Below are positions 3,088 through 48,339 of a stretch of DNA of 64,000 bases, piece by piece. The position numbers and the translations under genes were made by a program. The notes below the pieces were generated by a model that saw only the letters and a program-made list of their open reading frames with translations, was not told the DNA's origin and searched no databases. The DNA comes from Pleurocapsa minor HA4230-MV1. GTDB lineage: Bacteria > Cyanobacteriota > Cyanobacteriia > Cyanobacteriales > Xenococcaceae. Position 1 is the first letter of the stretch, and each line of letters opens with the position of its first letter. The stretch lies in NCBI GenBank assembly GCA_019359095.1, contig JAHHHZ010000019.1, positions 1 to 64,000 on the forward strand, read 5' to 3'.

Positions 3088-6000
3088 ATGTCAATTATTC
3101 ACGGCAGTTGGATCGTTAATGCGGGTCAAGATTATTTCTTTGTCTGGGGACAAACTTGGCGTTCTTTGGTTAACGAAACCTTCTCTCTTAATAAGTCGGG
3201 GGATTTTATTCATCCCTTTAACTTACAACGTTCAGAATTACTCGATCTGTTCCAAAGCCATGAATTAGATGTTGCCGATTTATTGGCTCAAAGCAAGTGG
3301 CATACTCAGCTAGTAGGAATGCCGACGATCATTACCGAAACGTCAGTGAGCAAAAAAGTACAGCCTGTATTTGCGGGAAACGCAGTTAAAGGGGAATCAA
3401 AGTTAGATCTGTATCTTTGGGAAGTAAAAGGATTTCGTCTAACTGTCGAGGAAACCATTAGTCTATTGCAGATATTATCCCTAGCTGCGCTACAGTCTGG
3501 TACAGATTATTTGGCGGGAGATCTACGTTATTGGTCGCATATATATCGCTGGGTATTAGATTTAATCGTCAGACAAAAGTTTCTGCCAGGAATTGAAGTT
3601 AAAAAATCTCGTAGAACTAACTACAGAAGTGTCTGGCAACCTCTAATTGATAGCGAAATCGATCGAGTACGCTTGGCAAAATTTACTCAAGCACTACCAG
3701 AAGCTTGTTTAGCCTATCTGGATGCGGAAGAATCTCAAGCCAATACTACCGAGGAAGGATTATTATTGCGATCGCTTTCTCTACTCTTAGATGGGCGGTT
3801 GCGTTCTTGGATTGACTATAATCCCAATAGTTATAAAGATATAAGTATTGAACCCTGGTTGCGATCGCTCTCGGGATCTCCTGTTTTAGAAACAAATTTA
3901 AGTGATGCTAACCGTTTGACTCATGCTTTGTATAGCTGGACTTTACCTGTCAGCGAGTATATAGTTAATCGGCAAAATGAATTAGGCTTAAATCGTTATC
4001 GAGTCTGTTTTGTGCTGGCACCGCCAATAGAAACTAAGGAAGATAGCGAACAGCCAGACTGGTCATTAAACTATTATTTACAAGCTTTAGATAATCCCGA
4101 TTTTATCGTTGATGCAGCGACGATCTGGCAATGTGCTGCTGAATTTCTCAAAATTGGCGATCGCACTATTGAAAATCCCCAGGAAACCTTACTTAAAGGC
4201 TTAGGATTAGCAACTCGTATTTATGAACCTGTGCGGGAAAGTTTAAATCATAGTCACCCTAGTAGTTGTATTCTCGATCCAATTCAGGTGTATGAGTTTA
4301 TTCGGGCGAAGGTTTGGCAGTTAAGGGACAATGGTTTAGGCGTAATTCTGCCTCCTGGCTTAACCAACGACAATCGAGAACAAAGACTGGGCATCAAAAT
4401 GACTGCTAGCGTTTCTCAGAGGAAGGGAGAGCGTTTAAGTCTGCAAAGTATGCTTAAGTATAAATTAGAAATTGCCGTAGGCGATCGCACTGTTTCTAAA
4501 ACAGACTTTAAAAAGTTACTGGCACAGAAGTCACCCATTGTGGAAATCGATGGACAGTGGATTGCCCTGCAACCAGCAGATGTTAGGGCTGCCCAAGCGG
4601 TATTAGATCAGTCTAACGATCAGCTGGATCTTTCAGTAGAAGATGCATTGCGTTTATCCACAGGAGATACTAAAACTTTAGCCAAGTTGCCCGTAGTTAA
4701 GTTTGAACCGACAGGAGTCTTAGCAGGCTTATTAGATAATTTGTCCGATGATAAGTCTGTCGAACCCGTGAATAAAATTAAGGATTTTAAAGGTGAATTA
4801 CGTCCTTATCAGGCAAAGGGTGTGGGCTGGCTATCCTTTTTAGACACTTGGGGATTAGGTGCTTGTTTAGCAGACGATATGGGTTTGGGCAAAACGATCC
4901 AATTAATTGCCTTCTTACTTAATCTTAAGCAGCAAAAGCTGTTAACGAAACCAACATTGTTAATCTGCCCTACTTCCGTAATTAACAACTGGGAACGAGA
5001 AGTTAAAAAATTTGCCCCCACATTACAAGCTATGATTCATCACGGCAATCAAAGAGAACAAGGAAAGGCATTTGCTAAAATAGTTAAGGATAAACAACTA
5101 GTAATCACCAGTTATTCCTTAGTGCATCGCGATCAAAAAACCTTATCAGGTATTGATTGGCAAGGGATAGTGTTAGACGAAGCCCAAAACATTAAAAACC
5201 CTGTGGCAAAACAATCTCAAGCGGTTAGAGAAATTCCCGCAGGATTTCGGATTGCCTTAACTGGTACGCCTGTAGAAAATCGTCTCACTGAACTATGGTC
5301 AATTCTGGATTTTCTTAATCCTGGCTTTTTGGGCAATCGCAACTTCTTCCAAAAGAGGTTTGCCGTACCGATCGAAAAATATGGCGATCGCGAATCTTTA
5401 AACATCCTCAGATCGCTAACGCAACCATTTATTCTCCGTCGTTTAAAAACCGATAAAAATATCATTCAAGACTTGCCCGAAAAGCAAGAAATGAACGTAT
5501 TCTGTGGATTATCGGCAGAACAGGCAGAACTCTATCAACAACTAGTAGATAACTCCCTCGAAGAGATTGAAGATGCTGATGGGATCAAACGCCGTGGCTT
5601 AATTCTGACACTGCTACTACGTCTTAAACAGCTTTGCAACCATCCCGAATTACTCGATCGCCATCAAGACAAAAAAGCGATCGTCAAGACAGAACATTTC
5701 GGCGATCGCTCTGGTAAACTATTGCGTTTAGAAGAAATGCTCGAAGAAATTGTCGATGAAGGCGATCGCTCTTTAATTTTTACTCAGTTTTCCGAGTGGG
5801 GCAAAATACTCAAACCCTATCTATCTGAGAAGCTAAAACAAGAAGTAATGTTCTTATACGGGGCAACTCCGCGCGAAGCTAGACAAGAAATGGTAGATCG
5901 CTTCCAAAATGAACCCAATGGCCCCAAAATCTTCATTCTATCCCTTAAAGCTGGGGGAACTGGACTCAACCTCACTAGAGCAAATCATGTCTTCCACGTC

Positions 6001-14769: not shown

Positions 14770-16281
14770 ATGAATACTATCCCTACAGTAAAAAGCACTT
14801 CTGGTTTGCTGAGAGCCTTTCGTCAAGTAAATGCAATTTTGCGTCCTGTGGAATTTATGGAACGGCGCAGCCAAAAATACGGTGATTTTTATCAGGTAAC
14901 GTTTAAAAATTCGCCACCAACTATTATGACCTCTAATCCTCAAGCGATCGAGGAAATTTTAACCGCTTCTGCCGATAAGTTTGATGTCGGTCGTGGTAAT
15001 AAAATGCTGAGTTTTTTGGTGGGAGATAATTCTTTACTGTTGTTGGATGGTAAAACCCATAAGCGTCGCCGAAAGTTATTGATCCCACCATTTCACGGTG
15101 AATCATTACACCGATGTAGCCAGCAAATAGTTGAAATAACTAATAAAGCAAGCGATCGCCTAGAGGTTAATCAACCATTTAAAGTCCGTTCTTTAACCCA
15201 AGAAATTACGATGCGAGTAATTCTAAGCGTGGTGTTTGGCATTGATTCGGGGACGCGATACGACCGCCTGAGAGAATTATTAACCAACCTACTAGATACA
15301 TTTAATAACCCATTAAATTCCAGTCTCATATTTTTTACTTGGTTACAACAAGACTGGGGTAAATATAGTCCTTGGGGTCGTTTTCTACTGATTAAACAAG
15401 AAATTAGAGAGTTAATCTATGCCGAAATAAAAGATAGACGAGAAGCGATTCAGCGCGGTGACGCGACGTTAGGAGCTAATCCTTTAGGACTTGGGGGTTT
15501 CCACCCAACTAAGCGGTGCAAGCCCCATGAGCGATATGCGGAGCGGTATCCTTTAGGACTGAATCAAGAAGCGATCGCTACTAATAAATTAGAGTACCGT
15601 GATATCTTAAGTTTATTGCTGATGGCAACAGATGAAACGGGCGAAGGAATGAGCGATGAAGAACTCCACGATGAGCTTATTACCCTGTTGTTTGCTGGAC
15701 ATGAAACTACCGCCTCAGCTTTGGCTTGGCTGTTTTACTGGATTCATTATCTACCCGAAGTCAAAGAAAAGCTACAGCAAGAGTTAGATTCATTAGGAGA
15801 CAATACTGATTATCAAGCGATCGCCAATCTACCCTATTTAAATGCAGTTATTTGTGAAACCCTACGTATTTATCCCATCGCTGCGGGAACTTTTGCTCGC
15901 GTTTTGACTCAACCCATGTCAATTATGGATTGTGATTTTCAGACCAATACTTGGTTTCTGATCTCAATTTATAATTTACATCATCAGGAAGCTTTATATC
16001 CCAATGCCAATCAATTTAATCCCGAAAGATTTTTAACCAAAAGTTATTCTAATTATGAATATCTGCCTTTTGGTGGTGGCAATCGTCGCTGTATTGGTTC
16101 AGCACTAGCATTACTAGAAATGAAATTAGTCACCGCAACTATATTATCTCGCTGTCAACTAGAACTAACGAATAAACGTCAAATGTTACCCGTACGTCGT
16201 GGTTTGACTCTCGCGCCACCAGCTTCTTTTAAAATGACTCTTGCAGCCAAGAAAGTTGCAAAGAGTTTAGAACTTGTCTGA
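14770..16281 (+). CDS. Cytochrome P450, CYP110-like, with an in-frame repeat insertion
   Basis: 503 residues. P450 hallmarks are intact: C-helix region GDNSLLLLDGKTHKRRRKLL, I-helix FAGHETTA, K-helix ETLR (ExxR), PERF, and the heme loop FGGGNRRCIG with the axial Cys. The sequence follows the cyanobacterial CYP110 family, thought to oxidise fatty acids or terpenes; the substrate is unknown. Residues about 231-265 (DATLGANPLGLGG to YPLGLN) have no counterpart in the family, where the ERR helix leads quickly into RDILSLLL. The DNA for this stretch is a copy of the dispersed palindromic repeat. Reading frame is kept, so the enzyme may still be active with an extra surface loop in the G-H region. 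ATG 14770 follows a HIP1 octamer. Confidence 0.93.
   Translation: MNTIPTVKSTSGLLRAFRQVNAILRPVEFMERRSQKYGDFYQVTFKNSPPTIMTSNPQAIEEILTASADKFDVGRGNKMLSFLVGDNSLLLLDGKTHKRRRKLLIPPFHGESLHRCSQQIVEITNKASDRLEVNQPFKVRSLTQEITMRVILSVVFGIDSGTRYDRLRELLTNLLDTFNNPLNSSLIFFTWLQQDWGKYSPWGRFLLIKQEIRELIYAEIKDRREAIQRGDATLGANPLGLGGFHPTKRCKPHERYAERYPLGLNQEAIATNKLEYRDILSLLLMATDETGEGMSDEELHDELITLLFAGHETTASALAWLFYWIHYLPEVKEKLQQELDSLGDNTDYQAIANLPYLNAVICETLRIYPIAAGTFARVLTQPMSIMDCDFQTNTWFLISIYNLHHQEALYPNANQFNPERFLTKSYSNYEYLPFGGGNRRCIGSALALLEMKLVTATILSRCQLELTNKRQMLPVRRGLTLAPPASFKMTLAAKKVAKSLELV
15461..15561. repeat. Dispersed palindromic repeat, copy inside the P450 gene
   Basis: About 100 bases inside the coding sequence. 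GATATGCGGAGCGGTAT followed by CCTTTAGG (15533-15557) differs at only two positions from the intergenic copies at 19558-19582, 22085-22110 and 28523-28547. A CCTTTAGGAC half also occurs at 15481-15490, giving an overall inverted pair. Its length keeps the reading frame open. Confidence 0.85.
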
Positions 16282-16331: not shown

Positions 16332-16425
16332 CTCCCCTAAAGGATATGCGTAGCGGTATCTCCAACTATGCGAGACAAGTGCTTTAGCACTAGCTCCGCG
16401 TCGCGCCTACCCTTCGGATCGCACT
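16332..16425. repeat. Dispersed palindromic repeat, copy B (both modules)
   Basis: CCCTAAAGGATATGCGTAGC GGTAT (type 1 module, left half) is followed after 12 bases by GTGCTTTAGCACTAGCT and CCGCGTCGC (type 2 module). It starts 50 bases after the P450 stop codon. With the duplicated leader copy at 16508 it fills most of the 347-base gap before the next gene. Confidence 0.8.
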
Positions 16426-19508: not shown

Positions 19509-19604
19509 TTATATGAAGTCCGTTTAAACAATTTCAATTAAAACTCGCGCCCTAAAGGATATGCGTAGCGGTATGCTTTAGGGCGCGAGATAAAGTTTTA
19601 ATTG
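19509..19604. repeat. Dispersed palindromic repeat, copy D, with long inverted arms
   Basis: CTCGCGCCCTAAAG (19544-19557) pairs with CTTTAGGGCGCGAG (19576-19589), around GATATGCGTAGCGGTAT. Outer arms CAATTAAAACT (19535-19545) and AGTTTTAATTG (19594-19604) extend the hairpin. Bases 19509-19581 match 22038-22110 with one difference. Placed between the convergent ugd and dioxygenase genes, it could also act as an mRNA 3'-end stabiliser. Confidence 0.88.
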
Positions 19605-22036: not shown

Positions 22037-22230
22037 TTTATATGAAGTCCGTTTAAACAATTCCAATTAAAACTCGCGCCCTAAAGGATATGCGTAGCGG
22101 TATGCTTTAGCACTAGCTTCGCGTCGCAAAGACGTTTATCCCGCTTAGTTTGGGGCAAAGACGCAAAGACGTTTATCGCGTTCTTGGGGCAAAGATTTTA
22201 TTAGAAGTAATTAAGCGGACTTGATATTAG
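22037..22230. mobile_element. MITE-like element with terminal inverted repeats (copy E of the palindromic repeat inside)
   Basis: ATATGAAGTCCGTTTAA (22039-22055) faces TTAAGCGGACTTGATAT (22211-22227): 15 of 17 positions are complementary, and weaker matching extends to about 30 bases. Inside are the type 1 and type 2 palindromic modules (22075-22127) and two direct copies of GCAAAGACGTTTATC separated by 30 bases. It has no coding capacity. The left 73 bases occur again at 19509-19581. It fills most of the 385-base gap between the divergently placed pepP start and the phosphatase-like gene. Confidence 0.65.
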
Positions 22231-28515: not shown

Positions 28516-28549
28516 TCCTAAAGGATATGCCTAGCGGTATGCTTTAGGA
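28516..28549. repeat. Dispersed palindromic repeat, copy F (type 1 module)
   Basis: TCCTAAAG and CTTTAGGA arms around GATATGCCTAGCGGTAT. It differs at one core position from copies D and E (CCTAGC for CGTAGC) and is an isolated single module. Confidence 0.85.
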
Positions 28550-37466: not shown

Positions 37467-37947
37467 TCTTTAATTAGGGGTATAGTTGAGAAACTGATTG
37501 TTTAAGGATAAATAGGCAGCATAAAGATATTTTACCCTCATAATTTCTTCACAAGTAGTCGGTATCGTATAGGTTATGGCTAGGTAAAGGAGTGAGGCTA
37601 TGGATACGAATCTTGAATAAATCACCAAAATTTCAGAGCAAGACGCATCGATAATTGCTGCCAATGTTTTCAGTTGGAAAATCTATTAATAAATTTAATC
37701 AATAAATCCAACAGACTATTTTAAGTAGAGGTTGAAGTCTTAAAGGCTTATATTCTCATACTAAGGCGATCGCAATAATGAAAAATGAAAAATTTTCATC
37801 TTAATCGCCGAAACCATCTCTTTACAGGCTTTAAACTCTATGCTGCATATTTTACAAGTATCTCGGTCTTTCTCCAGAAATACTTTCTAGACCATTTTGC
37901 AGAATTTTACATTAACCTCGGCGCAATGCCTGTAAAGGAGAAAAAAT
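37467..37947. other. Gene-free stretch before the repeat protein
   Basis: Short readings exist on both strands (37470-37664 minus, 37785-37985 plus) but lack ribosome sites and family character. The stretch presumably contains the promoter of the repeat protein; its ribosome site AAAGGAG is at 37935-37941. No RNA or repeat element is recognised. Confidence 0.5.
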
Positions 37948-39378
37948 ATGAAAACCTCCACTCAAATCATTACAACCAACTCTGATGATAACGCAGATGG
38001 CATTATCGATTCTCGTTATTCCAACACCAACACCTACGATCAAAAGGGTAATCTGCTCACTAACGTTTCTGAAGCTGATAATAACGCAGATGGCGTTATC
38101 GATTCTCGTTATTCCAACACCAACACCTACGATCAAAGTGGTAATCAACTAACTAGCGTTTCTGAATTTGACGATAACGCAGATGGCACTATCGATTATC
38201 GTTCTTCCAATACCAACACCTACGATCAAAGGGGTAATCAACTAACTAGTATTTCTGAATCTGACGATAACGCAGATGGCACTATCGATTATCGTTCTTC
38301 CAATACCAACACCTACGATCAAAAGGGTAATCAACTAACTAGCATTTATGAAGCTGATAACGATGGAGATGGCACTATCGATTATCGTTATTCCAACATC
38401 AACACCTATGATCGAGGGGATAATCAGCTAACTAGCGTTTCGGAAACTGATGACGATGGAGATGGCACTATCGATTATCGTTATTCAAGCACAAATACCT
38501 ACGATCAAAGGGGTAATCAACTCACTAGCGTTTATGAAACTGATGACAACGCAGATGGCGATATCGGTTATCGTTATTCAACCACAAATACCTACGATCA
38601 ACGTGGTAATCAACTAACTAGCATTTATGAAACTGATGACGATGGAGATGGCGCTATCAATTATCGTTCTTCAAGCACCAACACCTATGATCGACGGGGT
38701 AATCAACTAACTAGCGTTTCGGAAACTGATGATGATGGAGATGGCGATATCGATTATCGTTCTTCCAATACAAACACTTACGATCGAGGGGATAATCAAC
38801 TCACTAGCATTTATGAATATGATGACAACGCAGATGGCACTGTCGATTATCGTTCTTCAAGCACCAACACCTACGATCAAAGGGGTAATCAACTCACTAG
38901 CGTTTATGAATATGATGACACCGCAGATGGCACTGTCGATTCTCTTTATTCAAACACCAACACCTACGATCAAAGGGGTAATCAACTAACTGTCGTTTCT
39001 GAAGCCGATCACAACGCAGATGGTACTATCGATTATCGTTATTCAACCACAAATACCTACGATCAGATGGGTAATCAGCTAACTAGCGTTTCGGAAACTG
39101 ATATCGATGGAGATGGTCTTCTCAATTATCGTTCTTCAAGCACAAATACTTACGATCAAAGTGGTAATCAACTCACTAGCATTTATGAGTATGATGAAAA
39201 CGCAGATGGTACTATCGATTATCGTCAGGAAACACTCTATGAATATTCAGATGGAAATAAATACGTAATGGGTGTTTCCACTGGAGAAGTTGAAGTCTTT
39301 GCCGATGATTCGTTTGATTTCCCAGTCAATCCATTGACTGAACAATTTAATCTACCTTTTACAGTTTCTGAGGTTTAA
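37948..39378 (+). CDS. Tandem 31-residue-repeat protein with calcium-loop-like and YD-like motifs
   Basis: 476 residues made of 13 full repeats of 31 residues (13-415) and a partial 14th. Each repeat has an Asp-rich loop (DDNADGTIDYR, like the calcium loops of EF-hand, dockerin and thrombospondin type 3 repeats) followed by NTNTYDQRGNQLTS, resembling YD/RHS repeats. The first 12 residues (MKTSTQIITTNS) are not a signal peptide. The last 60 residues (DFPVNPLTEQFNLPFT) are non-repetitive and may be a secretion or anchoring signal. A calcium-stabilised solenoid, probably surface-located, is the best inference. AAAGGAG precedes ATG 37948. Confidence 0.8.
   Translation: MKTSTQIITTNSDDNADGIIDSRYSNTNTYDQKGNLLTNVSEADNNADGVIDSRYSNTNTYDQSGNQLTSVSEFDDNADGTIDYRSSNTNTYDQRGNQLTSISESDDNADGTIDYRSSNTNTYDQKGNQLTSIYEADNDGDGTIDYRYSNINTYDRGDNQLTSVSETDDDGDGTIDYRYSSTNTYDQRGNQLTSVYETDDNADGDIGYRYSTTNTYDQRGNQLTSIYETDDDGDGAINYRSSSTNTYDRRGNQLTSVSETDDDGDGDIDYRSSNTNTYDRGDNQLTSIYEYDDNADGTVDYRSSSTNTYDQRGNQLTSVYEYDDTADGTVDSLYSNTNTYDQRGNQLTVVSEADHNADGTIDYRYSTTNTYDQMGNQLTSVSETDIDGDGLLNYRSSSTNTYDQSGNQLTSIYEYDENADGTIDYRQETLYEYSDGNKYVMGVSTGEVEVFADDSFDFPVNPLTEQFNLPFTVSEV
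37984..39192 (+). repeat. 13 tandem 93-bp coding repeats
   Basis: The DNA repeats in steps of 93 bases, each with near-constant AACACCTACGATCAAAGG and GGTAATCAACT. Neighbouring units are alike in third codon positions too, so recent expansion or gene conversion is likely. Confidence 0.9.
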
Positions 39379-44595: not shown

Positions 44596-47500
44596 TTGGC
44601 TATCTCTCTATCAGATCTGAAAAATACAAATGGTAATGATGGCTTAGTTATTCCTGGCAAAAATGAGGGCGATCGCTTGGGAGAAGCAGTTTATAGTGCA
44701 GGGGATCTCAATGGTGATGGTCTTGATGATCTAGTGGTGACTGCGCCTGATGGGGGAATACCCAGTACTGATGATGATAGCTATTATCAGAGCGATCGCC
44801 GTGGTCAAGCCTATGTGATTTTTGGTACTCGCAGCAGCAATAATTCTACTGTTAATCTTGATAGCCTCAATGGTAGCAATGGATTTAAGGTTTCTGGGAT
44901 TGATGCTACTAATCAGTTGGGTAGTGCGGTTTCGGTGGGAGATCTTAATGGTGATGGCATTGATGACTTAGTTTTAGGTGCGCCTAACGCAGGACGCAAT
45001 ATTAGTAGCTATAACTACAGCTACAGTGAAAATAATGGTGAAGCTTATGTGATTTTTGGTACTCGCAATGGCAAAGATGCTAATTTCAATCTGCAATCGT
45101 TAAATGGCAGCAATGGTTTTACCCTTAAAGGAATTGACGCTTCAGATCTTTTGGGGACAGCTATTACTAGTGCAGGAGACATTAATGGTGATGGAATTGA
45201 CGATCTAGCAGTTAGCGCTACAGGAGGGGGTCAACCAATTACCAATCGCAATGGTTTTACCTATAGCGATCGCCGTGGAGAAGTTTATGTTTTATTTGGC
45301 AAGAAAAACGGCTTTGATGCTCGAATTAATCTGTTTAATCTCAATGGTAGCAACGGTTTTATCGTTGATGGTAAGGATGCTAATGATAGCTTAGGTAGTG
45401 CTTTGAGTAATGCAGGAGATATCAATGGTGATGGGATTGATGATCTGGTGATTGGTGCGTCTAATGCAGGAAATGTGATCGATAGTCCCTTTGCTGATGG
45501 CGATAGCGATCGACGAGGAGAAATTTACGTTGTTTTTGGCAGTAAAAACGGATTTAATTCTCGATTTAGCGTTGGCGATCGCTTTACTCTGACAGGAATT
45601 GGCATAGAAGATAATTTAGGCACGGCAATTAGTAGTGCAGGCGATCTTAATGGGGATGGTATTGATGATTTAGTTATAGGTGCAGCTAACGCTTCTGTTG
45701 ATGGGTCATATACCCAATCAGGTCAGGTTTACGTATTGTTTGGCCGTCAGGGTGGGTTTGGCACTCAGTTTGACCTTAATAGTCTCAACGGCAACAACGG
45801 CTTTAGTATTGCTGGTATCAATGGGGGAGATGGTTTAGGAAATGCCGTAAGCGCAGGAGATTTTAATGGTGATGACATTGACGATCTCCTGGTTGGTGCT
45901 AGTACCGCTGGGTCAGATAGTCGTGGTGCAGCCTACGTTCTGTTTGGTAAACGCAATGGTTTTACGTCGCAAGTAGATTTGGCTAATCTTAGCAGCAGTG
46001 CAGGCATCAAAATTGCGGGAGTTAGCAGTGAAGATCTGCTTGGTAGTGGGATTAGTAGTGGTGGAGATCTTAACGGTGATGGTGCTGACGATTTAATAGT
46101 TAGTGCGCCTGGTGTCGATTTAGGTAATGAATACACGAAAGAAGGTACGACCTATGTGATTTTTGGCAAGCCACAACCACAACCACAGCCAGTTCCTTCT
46201 AATAGTCCCACACCCTACAGCGATCGCCTTAAAGGAACTGCTCAAAACGACCAGATTTCAGGACAAAACGGTGATGATACTATCTTTGGGGAAGATGGCA
46301 ACGACACCTTAGCGGGAGATGGTGGTAACGATCGGCTCTCTGGTAGCAATGGCAACGACACCTTAGCGGGAAATGATGGCGGAGATACAATCTCTGGTGG
46401 TGCAGGAACAGATCTGCTCAATGGTGGCAATCAACAAGACCGACTTTTAGGAGATGCGGGTAATGATAGCCTAGTGGGAGGCACTGATAATGATTTATTA
46501 GAAGGAGGTTCGGGGAATGACACTATTTTTGGTGCCGATCCCAATAACTTTCAGGTTCAAGTTGGCGAACAAGAAACCCTCATTGGTGGAGAGGGAACAG
46601 ATTTATTTATCCTCGGTGACAAAAATCAGATCTACTATGACGATCGCAATTCCAGGACAGATGGTTCAACCGACTACGCTCTCATTGAAGACTTTAATCT
46701 TGCTCAAGACAAAATTCAGTTAAAAGGCGATCGCTCTTTATATAGCCTCTCTTTCTTTGCAGATGGCAATGGTAAAACCTTAGCTAACCTTTTTTACTTA
46801 CAGCCAGAAGCAGTTCCCGAACGAGTGGGTATTCTTAAGAACGTTTCTTCTAACCTCACTTTAAGTAATTCTGCCTTTGTTTTTGTCGGTCAACAGCCTA
46901 GTAATCCGCCACCGACAACTATCATCGGTCAAGCAACTCCCTACAACGATCGCCTTAACGGAACTGCTCAAAACGACCAGATTTCAGGACAAAACGGTAA
47001 TGATACTATCTTTGGGGAAGATGGCAACGACACCCTAGCGGGAGATGGTGGTAACGATCGGCTCTCTGGTAGCAATGGCAACGACACCTTAGCGGGAAAT
47101 GATGGCGGAGATACAATCTCTGGTGGTGCAGGAACAGATCTGCTCAATGGTGGCAATCAACAAGACCGACTTCTAGGAGACGCGGGTAATGATAGCCTAG
47201 TGGGAGGCACTGATAATGATTTATTAGAAGGAGGTTCGGGGAATGACACTCTCTTTGGTGCCGATCCCAATAACTCCCAGGTTCAAGTTGGCGAACAAGA
47301 AACCCTCATTGGTGGAGAGGGAACAGATTTATTTATCCTCGGTGACAAAAATCAGATCTACTATGACGATCGCAATTCCAGGACAGATGGTTCAACGGAC
47401 TACGCTTTAATTGAAGACTTTAATTCTGCTCAAGACAAAATTCAGTTAAAAGGCGATCGCAGTTTATATAGTTTGTCTTTCTTTGCAGATGGCAATGGTC

Positions 47501-48339
47501 AAACCTTAGCTAACCTCTATTACCTACAGCCAGGAGCAACAGCCGAACGAGTGGGTATTCTTAAGAACGTTTCTTCTAACCTCACTCTAAGTAATTCTGC
47601 CTTCATCTATTTACCAAATGAATCACCCCAACCAGCGTTTAATTTAATCGGTGGAGCAACACCTTACAATGACAAGCTTAAAGGCAGTGTTTTAAACGAT
47701 CAAATCTCAGGAAATAGCGGAGACGACAACATCTCTGGCGGGGATGGTAATGATTCTCTAGCTGGTGATGGCGGTGGTGATTCTCTCTTTGGGGATAGTG
47801 GTAACGATACGGTTAACGGGGGCAACAATAACGATAATCTCTATGGTGCAGCAGGTAATGATTTGCTTGATGGAGGCAATAATCAAGACCAACTCTCAGG
47901 AGATGACGGTAACGATACCCTCAATGGCGGTACTGACAATGACTTCTTAACAGGGGGAATAGGTAACGATACTCTCAATGGTACTAACCCTAATAACTTT
48001 GAACTCCAGCTTGGGGAACAGGATACTTTGGTTGGTGGTGCAGACAGAGATCTTTTCATCCTAGGGGACAAAGATCGGCTCTACTATAGCGATCGCAATT
48101 CCAGGACAGATGGTTCAACCGACTACGCTGTAATTAAGGACTTCAATCCTGCACAAGATCAAATTCAGCTAAAAGGCGATCGCCGTTCATATAACCTCTC
48201 TTTCTTTACTGGTGCTAATGGTAATACTCTGGCTAGTATTTTATATCTTGAAGCTGGAAGTACTCCTGAAAGAATCGGCATCATTGAAGATGTCTCACCT
48301 GATTTGACCATCAATAACAGCGCTTTTACCTTTATTTAA
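44596..48339 (+). CDS. FG-GAP beta-propeller and RTX-repeat protein
   Basis: 1247 residues. Residues about 1-530 hold seven FG-GAP repeats, each with a calcium loop (e.g. GDLNGDGLDDLVV, GDINGDGIDDLAV), as in integrin-alpha propellers. Then three modules of hemolysin-type RTX nonapeptides (GGxGxDxUx; GEDGNDTLAGDGGND), each ending in a DRNSRTDGSTDYALIEDFN segment typical of RTX C-terminal capping. Such proteins usually leave by type I secretion and stay on the surface or in the matrix; calcium binds in both parts. No N-terminal signal, as expected. The start is TTG 44596, 8 bases after AGGAG; the ATG at 44591 is out of frame. RTX modules 1 and 2 are near identical in DNA. Confidence 0.93.
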   Translation: MAISLSDLKNTNGNDGLVIPGKNEGDRLGEAVYSAGDLNGDGLDDLVVTAPDGGIPSTDDDSYYQSDRRGQAYVIFGTRSSNNSTVNLDSLNGSNGFKVSGIDATNQLGSAVSVGDLNGDGIDDLVLGAPNAGRNISSYNYSYSENNGEAYVIFGTRNGKDANFNLQSLNGSNGFTLKGIDASDLLGTAITSAGDINGDGIDDLAVSATGGGQPITNRNGFTYSDRRGEVYVLFGKKNGFDARINLFNLNGSNGFIVDGKDANDSLGSALSNAGDINGDGIDDLVIGASNAGNVIDSPFADGDSDRRGEIYVVFGSKNGFNSRFSVGDRFTLTGIGIEDNLGTAISSAGDLNGDGIDDLVIGAANASVDGSYTQSGQVYVLFGRQGGFGTQFDLNSLNGNNGFSIAGINGGDGLGNAVSAGDFNGDDIDDLLVGASTAGSDSRGAAYVLFGKRNGFTSQVDLANLSSSAGIKIAGVSSEDLLGSGISSGGDLNGDGADDLIVSAPGVDLGNEYTKEGTTYVIFGKPQPQPQPVPSNSPTPYSDRLKGTAQNDQISGQNGDDTIFGEDGNDTLAGDGGNDRLSGSNGNDTLAGNDGGDTISGGAGTDLLNGGNQQDRLLGDAGNDSLVGGTDNDLLEGGSGNDTIFGADPNNFQVQVGEQETLIGGEGTDLFILGDKNQIYYDDRNSRTDGSTDYALIEDFNLAQDKIQLKGDRSLYSLSFFADGNGKTLANLFYLQPEAVPERVGILKNVSSNLTLSNSAFVFVGQQPSNPPPTTIIGQATPYNDRLNGTAQNDQISGQNGNDTIFGEDGNDTLAGDGGNDRLSGSNGNDTLAGNDGGDTISGGAGTDLLNGGNQQDRLLGDAGNDSLVGGTDNDLLEGGSGNDTLFGADPNNSQVQVGEQETLIGGEGTDLFILGDKNQIYYDDRNSRTDGSTDYALIEDFNSAQDKIQLKGDRSLYSLSFFADGNGQTLANLYYLQPGATAERVGILKNVSSNLTLSNSAFIYLPNESPQPAFNLIGGATPYNDKLKGSVLNDQISGNSGDDNISGGDGNDSLAGDGGGDSLFGDSGNDTVNGGNNNDNLYGAAGNDLLDGGNNQDQLSGDDGNDTLNGGTDNDFLTGGIGNDTLNGTNPNNFELQLGEQDTLVGGADRDLFILGDKDRLYYSDRNSRTDGSTDYAVIKDFNPAQDQIQLKGDRRSYNLSFFTGANGNTLASILYLEAGSTPERIGIIEDVSPDLTINNSAFTFI
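46210..47660 (+). repeat. Tandem 726-bp duplication inside the RTX gene
   Basis: The sequence from about 46210 recurs 726 bases (242 codons) later with very high identity, including silent positions (for example GAAGATGGCAACGACACC and GGTAACGATCGGCTCTCTGG in both). A third, diverged copy follows 723 bases further. Confidence 0.92.

Follow-up and report, generated by a model that had tools for sequence, protein, structure and literature searches.

A probable mobile hairpin of 51 nucleotides lying in frame in a P450 gene of the cyanobacterium Pleurocapsa minor

Mobile palindromic repeats that lie in frame within unrelated protein genes, where they encode a peptide of conserved sequence, have been described in Rickettsia, and a review gives these Rickettsia palindromic elements as about 150 bp long (PMC10969869). 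Occurrences of REPs inside ORFs were reported in PMC3733652, and canonical REPs are characterized by GT[AG]G on the 5' side of the stem (PMC6006769). In the IS200/IS605 and TnpA-REP systems, hairpins are recognized and the cleavage sites are chosen by guide bases, as set out in PMC8266576 and PMC6006769. The PATEs and SMRs of Haloquadratum are presented in PMC3119063 as transposase-free palindromic elements that insert without target duplication and have smaller mobile repeats inside their palindromes, and the PATE palindromes are said there to resemble IS605-type ends. The locus described below was compared with these systems and is best read, with a probability of roughly 80%, as a P450 gene into which a small mobile hairpin, non-autonomous and with a 51-nt unit, has been copied; the hairpin inserts beside an ARAA-like sequence without target duplication. 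The window, that is, the whole stretch of 64,000 nucleotides of Pleurocapsa minor HA4230-MV1 that was analyzed (contig JAHHHZ010000019.1), contains the following gene and element.

14770–16281, + strand: gene for a P450 of 503 aa, its frame continuing across the insert (ORF list and Pfam)
15445–15570, + strand: composite element, 126 nt, codon phase 0, residues 226–267, absent from 20 of 20 homologue rows, with limits set by comparison with the 51-nt family

The 503-aa product was matched by the Pfam p450 model (E = 3.3e-79, residues 26–484), and no NCBIfam model scored above its cut-off against it. The P450 domain and the heme-ligand, I-helix and K-helix motifs are present, with AGHETT, ETLR and FGGGNRRCIG intact and coinciding with invariant alignment columns, and the frame runs through without a stop, as the first-pass annotation had stated. 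In the alignment of the window protein with 20 homologue rows, taken from named contigs and other relatives (of the seven named rows, six seem to come from genomes that also supplied other rows, leaving about 14 independent rows, one of which, L104, is a truncated gene), 42 extra residues before RDILSLLL were found in the window row alone. The annotated stretch without a counterpart in homologues was thus confirmed as a single in-frame segment before that motif; its limits, given as residues 231–265, had to be redrawn to 226–267, and the label “exon-like” was misleading, as there was no sign of splicing. The nearest homologue, from Waterburya agarophytonicola (L006), reads GAGAGGCGATCGCTAATAAT at this site and the window reads GAGAA, 126 nt and GCGATCGCTACTAAT. 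The L006 P450 itself lacks residues 46–185, and the two sides of this missing part are joined directly (about position 4126). The P450 of L001/G011 presented a separate 16-aa in-frame insertion, from another palindrome, about 10 residues downstream of the window's site; the 16-aa palindromic insertion is carried by the P450 gene of L001 and of L101, and L001 has a further insertion near the C-terminus. The pN/pS values, 0.18–0.24 on both sides of the insert when the window P450 was compared with its nearest full-length homologues (L098 and L099), show past constraint, mostly from before the insertion, and are no proof of present function. The plant P450 LUT5, whose structure has been solved, is longer and different at the insert position. 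By the general topology of P450s, this place is probably the loop between helices G and H, a predicted surface loop that the insert should lengthen, and the P450 with its insert probably still folds. The insertion event may be recent, judging from nested modules that closely equal other copies.

Alignment of the insert with other copies, proposed in the first-pass annotation, returned matches elsewhere in the own genome, which cover the insert piecewise and not as a single repeat. At least 56 such matches were obtained at E ≤ 1, with the insert itself counted and 40 of the 331 first-look candidates scored. When nested repeats of 30, 21 and 24 nt were taken out, the remaining 51 nt were found to equal the family consensus, GCGATGCAGCGCGGTCTTGGGGGTTTCCCCCATGAGCGACTGCATCAAGAA, bar two changes, and these two departures compensate each other in the outer stem. 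The parts of the insert and its flanks are as follows.

15441–15444, + strand: left flank AGAA, on the target side; the left-flank consensus of the family is ARAA
15447–15453, + strand: left arm of the outer stem, GATTCAG, pairing with 15559–15565; both arms are off-consensus at one paired position
15460–15489, + strand: nested 30-nt repeat (module A), with the same junction in L090, a related module in L035 and more own-genome copies
15503–15523, + strand: nested 21-nt repeat in the loop region of the hairpin, found at 11 places in the fetched loci at ≤3 mismatches, the window copy included, most of them within the hairpin
15535–15558, + strand: nested 24-nt repeat (module C), with the same junction in L080, L017, L020 and others
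15559–15565, + strand: right arm of the outer stem, CTGAATC, pairing with the left arm, with covariation across copies
15571–15578, + strand: right flank GCGATCGC, the HIP1 octamer; it lies directly downstream in 10 of 56 51-nt copies

An 18-nt core pattern gave 15 matches, versus none with the reversed control, and no second 51-nt core was found within the window at ≤3 mismatches in its 18-nt center. The whole insert gave no folding signal (z = −0.57 as DNA and −0.36 as RNA), its hairpin being broken up by the nested modules; stable folds were obtained for two 51-nt units (z = −5.49 and −3.32). A known RNA family, with HEARO as the first guess, was considered and rejected, the window having no Rfam match at the gathering score; a run of Rfam on 15 own-genome repeat loci at E ≤ 1 gave one irrelevant sub-threshold match. 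The nested 21- and 24-nt modules are presumably of the size of the small mobile repeats of Elhai et al. 2008, a study which reportedly deals with very small mobile repeats of cyanobacterial genomes and which may describe part of this element. Repeats akin to one of the modules lie elsewhere in the window.

16336–16367, + strand: intergenic repeat, kin to the 24-nt module only (78% over 32 nt)
19551–19582, + strand: intergenic hairpin repeat, kin to the 24-nt module only (3 mismatches)
22080–22111, + strand: intergenic hairpin repeat, kin to the 24-nt module only (3 mismatches)
28517–28548, + strand: intergenic hairpin repeat, kin to the 24-nt module only (3 mismatches)

The insert had been described as a copy of a repeat that otherwise lies between genes of the window. 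It is probably a mobile palindromic repeat; what it shares with the intergenic repeats named is at most a 24-nt module. This module is all that recurs at 19.5, 22.1 and 28.5 kb, part of it recurs at 16.3 kb, and the supposed copies at 10.8, 16.9 and 44.0 kb were, by eye, other CCTTTAGG-type repeats and not the element of the insert. The short intergenic CCTTTAGG-type repeats are kin only to modules nested inside the 51-nt hairpin. The window also holds a 93-nt tandem repeat in 13 copies (37889–39304) and a repeat in 3 copies spaced by about 725 nt (46210–48132).

Copies of the 51-nt unit were called from searches of the own genome and from the best places among the matches listed in 20 relatives, six contig-end places being left out. 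The copies called, at least 88, include at least two double calls (L077 and L010) and some doubtful long ones. Among the matches listed, 56 of the 88 measured exactly 51 nt and 73 had a length divisible by three, with 15 that did not; the 32 copies of other lengths, some of them miscalls, were accordingly divided into 17 and 15. All 56 copies of 51 nt, 35 distinct ones among them, start with GCG (GCGA or GCGG). Their left flank was ARAA in 27 of 56 and had a final A in 53 of 56, and their right flank had G first in 35 of 56 and GCGATCGC in 10. The stems of the 51-nt hairpin covary. Pairing was determined in a set of 59 copies (35 distinct) not chosen for pairing: of all 147 anchors in the loci, some of which belong to other families, the ones retained show AAGA at the fixed right end. 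In the 35 distinct copies, 240 of 245 outer-arm pairs were formed (best of 2000 shuffles, 205), 95.7% of the cells of the whole hairpin were paired (86.2% when shuffled) and 51 cells were doubly changed (14.0 when shuffled); none of 500 shuffles, which leave the kinship of the copies in, reached any of five measures, and sliding the partners by 1–3 columns brought the pairing to 40–50%. Hairpin interiors swapped for other hairpins, giving 102 or 104 nt, were observed in L206, L208, L209 and L234. Eight copies from several genomes (L085, L189, L190, L198, L199, L200, L201 and L208) have nearly common flanks, AAGAA or GAAA followed by a AATGGTGTAAT-like sequence, and go back either to a single old insertion into repeated DNA or to a target that is favored.

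The 51-nt element was shown to insert exactly and without target duplication. The empty site of an AAA_23 ATPase gene in relatives reads CCAGAA^AAT, and the own genome has CCAGAA, exactly 51 nt and AAT. For L193 and L233, a duplication of as little as 1 nt is excluded by the empty sites: either the element's last base is unlike the base preceding the element and its first base unlike the one following it, or there is no room for a duplication; AAGAA or AAGAC is therefore part of the element. The empty site of L083 is consistent with no duplication, with up to two bases ambiguous, and heptamer arrays continue in register around nine copies. The target-site duplication by which MITEs are recognized is thus absent from this element at the AAA_23, L193 and L233 empty sites and in the heptamer arrays.

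The first-pass annotation had likened the P450 insert to the palindromic elements of Rickettsia, as a mobile palindromic repeat in frame within a gene. This comparison was supported and extends to other genes; further in-frame insertions, for which a search of the genome had been suggested, turned up in genes of the own genome and of relatives. In the own genome, the AAA_23 ATPase has 17 inserted aa; G005 shares the insertion at this site, five other relatives show a 17-aa gap and three are irregular in length. A Glucosamine_iso protein has 25 aa, with a clean 25-aa gap in eight relatives, one irregular relative and one in which the site was not spanned, and a DUF7005 protein has 42 aa from a copy in reverse orientation, opposite which three relatives show gaps of 42, 42 and 40 aa. 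A kinase/AAA_16/histidine-kinase protein has 24 aa; in G002 this site is occupied too, but by a copy whose nested sequence is different, both being in frame, and G005 showed no clean gap there. Two own-genome ORFs, C5 and C24b, are doubtful, one having no Pfam family and one being a transposase fragment. Pfam was run on the own-genome host genes (7 proteins), and the genes of relatives were named by eye. From the relatives, 14 host genes were chosen and 10 were searched for homologues: clean 17-aa gaps were found in homologues of L083, L193, L213, L233 and L267, gaps of 7 and 9 aa in those of L221, and an ambiguous result was obtained for L188. The insertion of L086 is common to L330 at the same site, and no empty-site homologue of L092 or L235 was found among 30 fetched loci. 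Mobile-element genes also harbor copies (L086, L096, L097, L203, L225 and L151), the hosts, most of them named by eye, being IscB-like, LtrA-like, TnpB-like, IS200 TnpA and an ISL3 transposase fragment. Two NRPS genes, L145 (G000:C2:46861-50766) and L146 (G000:C36, ORF to 527028), carry modules of the 30-nt and 24-nt types in frame, without the 51-nt core and near TGDLARYL...EYLGR; a Pfam run on one of the two placed the small modules between AMP-binding and AMP-binding_C.

Among the matches listed, 26 of the 88 called copies are enclosed by an ORF that extends 60 aa or more beyond the copy in both directions. Three of these were set aside, namely the double calls L077 and L010 together with L255, in which the right end as called differs from AAGA; the length of each of the other 23 is a multiple of three. 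Of 1760 random 51-nt windows taken from the same loci, 834 fell, with such margins, in ORFs of 200 aa or more, versus the 26 of 88 for the copies. The translated consensus has a stop in two of the six frames and is open in four; about 32% of the copies would be expected in ORFs if only open frames survived without other selection, and 30% were observed, a rough comparison given the biased sample and ORFs that are not proven genes. A gene should usually remain readable after insertion because 51 nt make 17 codons and four of the six frames are open. Frame use, with the three set-aside copies and ORFs open on both strands included, was 14 for forward phase 0, 8 for reverse phase 0, 4 for forward phase 1, 2 for reverse phase 2 and 1 for forward phase 2. 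The two phase-0 frames, forward (AMQRGLGGFPHERLHQE) and reverse (FLMQSLMGETPKTALHR), were used most, which could reflect the frame in which the usual targets are read.

The element was found in 21 of the 40 genomes searched, 21 of 25 from its own family (own genome included) and none of 15 from other families at that cut-off. A 20-nt hairpin pattern with ≤1 mismatch was detected in 37 of 386 cyanobacterial genomes, again with the own genome included (150 in one genome, 0 with the reversed control), and the 51-nt form occurs outside the own family in L304, L306 and L307. A sister form elsewhere in the phylum has a different right end and 57-nt inserts in three of five copies (L310, L314 and L321), with heptamer-like flanks agreeing at 19, 15 and 16 of 21 positions, respectively, the other two copies being uninformative; L314 lies within an open frame of 936 aa. 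Phage records gave no match to the unit, and plasmid records gave three, each covering 57–71% of it. No report of the element was found in the literature search, which did not take in the most relevant paper, so that absence from print is not claimed; in the literature text, stretches of the element sequence appeared in seven papers, unrelated by title, and the peptide appeared in none.

Because there is no target duplication, compensatory changes keep the pairing and the left flank ARAA resembles the right end AAGAA, we infer, tentatively and at somewhat less than even odds, a route in which a transposase of the HUH (Y1-type) class, supplied in trans, would move the element as a single-stranded hairpin. 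That the left flank is similar to the right end fits the guide-base cleavage scheme of IS200/IS605 and TnpA-REP. Against this route stand the lack of a linked enzyme, the missing GTAG tag and the definable IS200-type left ends, which do not match. None of the eight Y1-type genes of the own genome has an element-flanked neighborhood, and Y1 genes fetched elsewhere have single neighbors only, which may lie there by chance, at about 0.7 and 1.5 kb in G006 and about 0.35 kb in G388. One element copy is placed at the beginning of an IS200 gene (L225), perhaps also by chance. IS200-type left ends could be defined only in two relatives, G008 and G010, and look unlike the element. The arm sequence was separately considered as a target guide and rejected, as the commonest arm pair was found at many unrelated targets.

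How the insert reached its present form and what it does to the gene admit other explanations. A plain 51-nt element may have entered the P450 and received its three small whole-codon repeats later, within the gene, instead of arriving as a finished 126-nt composite; the kinase/AAA_16 site, where the cores of the own genome and of G002 enclose different nested sequence, each of them in frame, and the failure to find a second copy of the exact composite speak for such a build-up, but the same nested junctions in copies without a spanning ORF (L090, L080 and L017) indicate that ready-made composites exist, and we lean slightly against a stepwise origin. Movement without any transposase, by homologous or replication-based recombination between short identical sequences such as GAAGCGAT on both sides, would agree with the place of the P450 insert between GAAGCGAT and GAAGCGATCGC and with the 10 of 56 51-nt copies that lie directly before GCGATCGC; it is nevertheless quite improbable, as the two ends are constant in most copies although the right flanks are unrelated, which short homology does not explain.

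The insert might also inactivate the P450, the frame being open by luck of length in a gene heading for loss. Copies elsewhere match the nested modules exactly or almost exactly, so that the event is perhaps too recent for selection to have acted, and the shortened P450 of L006 implies that the gene can be dispensable; set against the absence of a stop, the intact motifs, the low pN/pS on both sides and the independent 16-aa palindromic insertion in the same region of L001/G011, which suggests a tolerant site, this outcome is judged unlikely. Removal of the insert after transcription or translation, in the style of an intron or intein, would suit a structured and precisely bounded segment; with no relevant Rfam match in the window or in 15 own-genome repeat loci, a frame open through the insert and a size far below that of the self-splicing introns and inteins known, it is hardly credible. 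The preferred reading is a copy of the mobile 51-nt hairpin carried in frame.

The small mobile hairpins might further form a set of frame-proof elements which, through whole-codon lengths and insertion without target duplication, donate ready-made peptide loops at low cost. The lengths of the core (51 nt), the sister form (57 nt) and the nested modules (18, 21, 24, 24 and 30 nt) accord with this idea, which we hold to be rather doubtful: in 15 of the 88 called copies the length is not a multiple of three, and a length held in common is not necessarily the outcome of selection. It can now be tested whether new segments of proteins come routinely from mobile repeats and whether selection for reading-frame safety acts on the lengths of repeats. 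The covarying stems and exact ends also provide a clean substrate with which to look for the enzyme behind the movement of such repeats.

Compared with the known systems, the 51-nt element resembles REPs and BIMEs in being a short imperfect hairpin with conserved irregularities in many copies, but it starts with GCGA or GCGG and lacks the GTAG (GT[AG]G) tag, and no flanking transposase gene was found among the Y1-type genes fetched. It is like PATEs in the absence of target duplication and in the smaller repeats nested in its palindrome, and seems unlike them in that the IS200-type left ends of two relatives (G008 and G010, the only definable ones) do not resemble it. With the Rickettsia palindromic elements it shares a palindromic and probably mobile nature and an in-frame position in unrelated genes; the Rickettsia elements are about 150 bp and the cyanobacterial unit is 51 nt, with four open frames, two of which are used most. 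The likeness is one of mode of action. In-frame palindromic insertion is already known from Rickettsia, and the event described here is of that kind, with a different, codon-sized element in cyanobacteria. In-frame palindromic elements come chiefly from Rickettsia in the review (PMC10969869), and a short, sharply bounded cyanobacterial hairpin does likewise, for a simple reason: its length is a multiple of the codon, it inserts without target duplication and four of its six frames are open.
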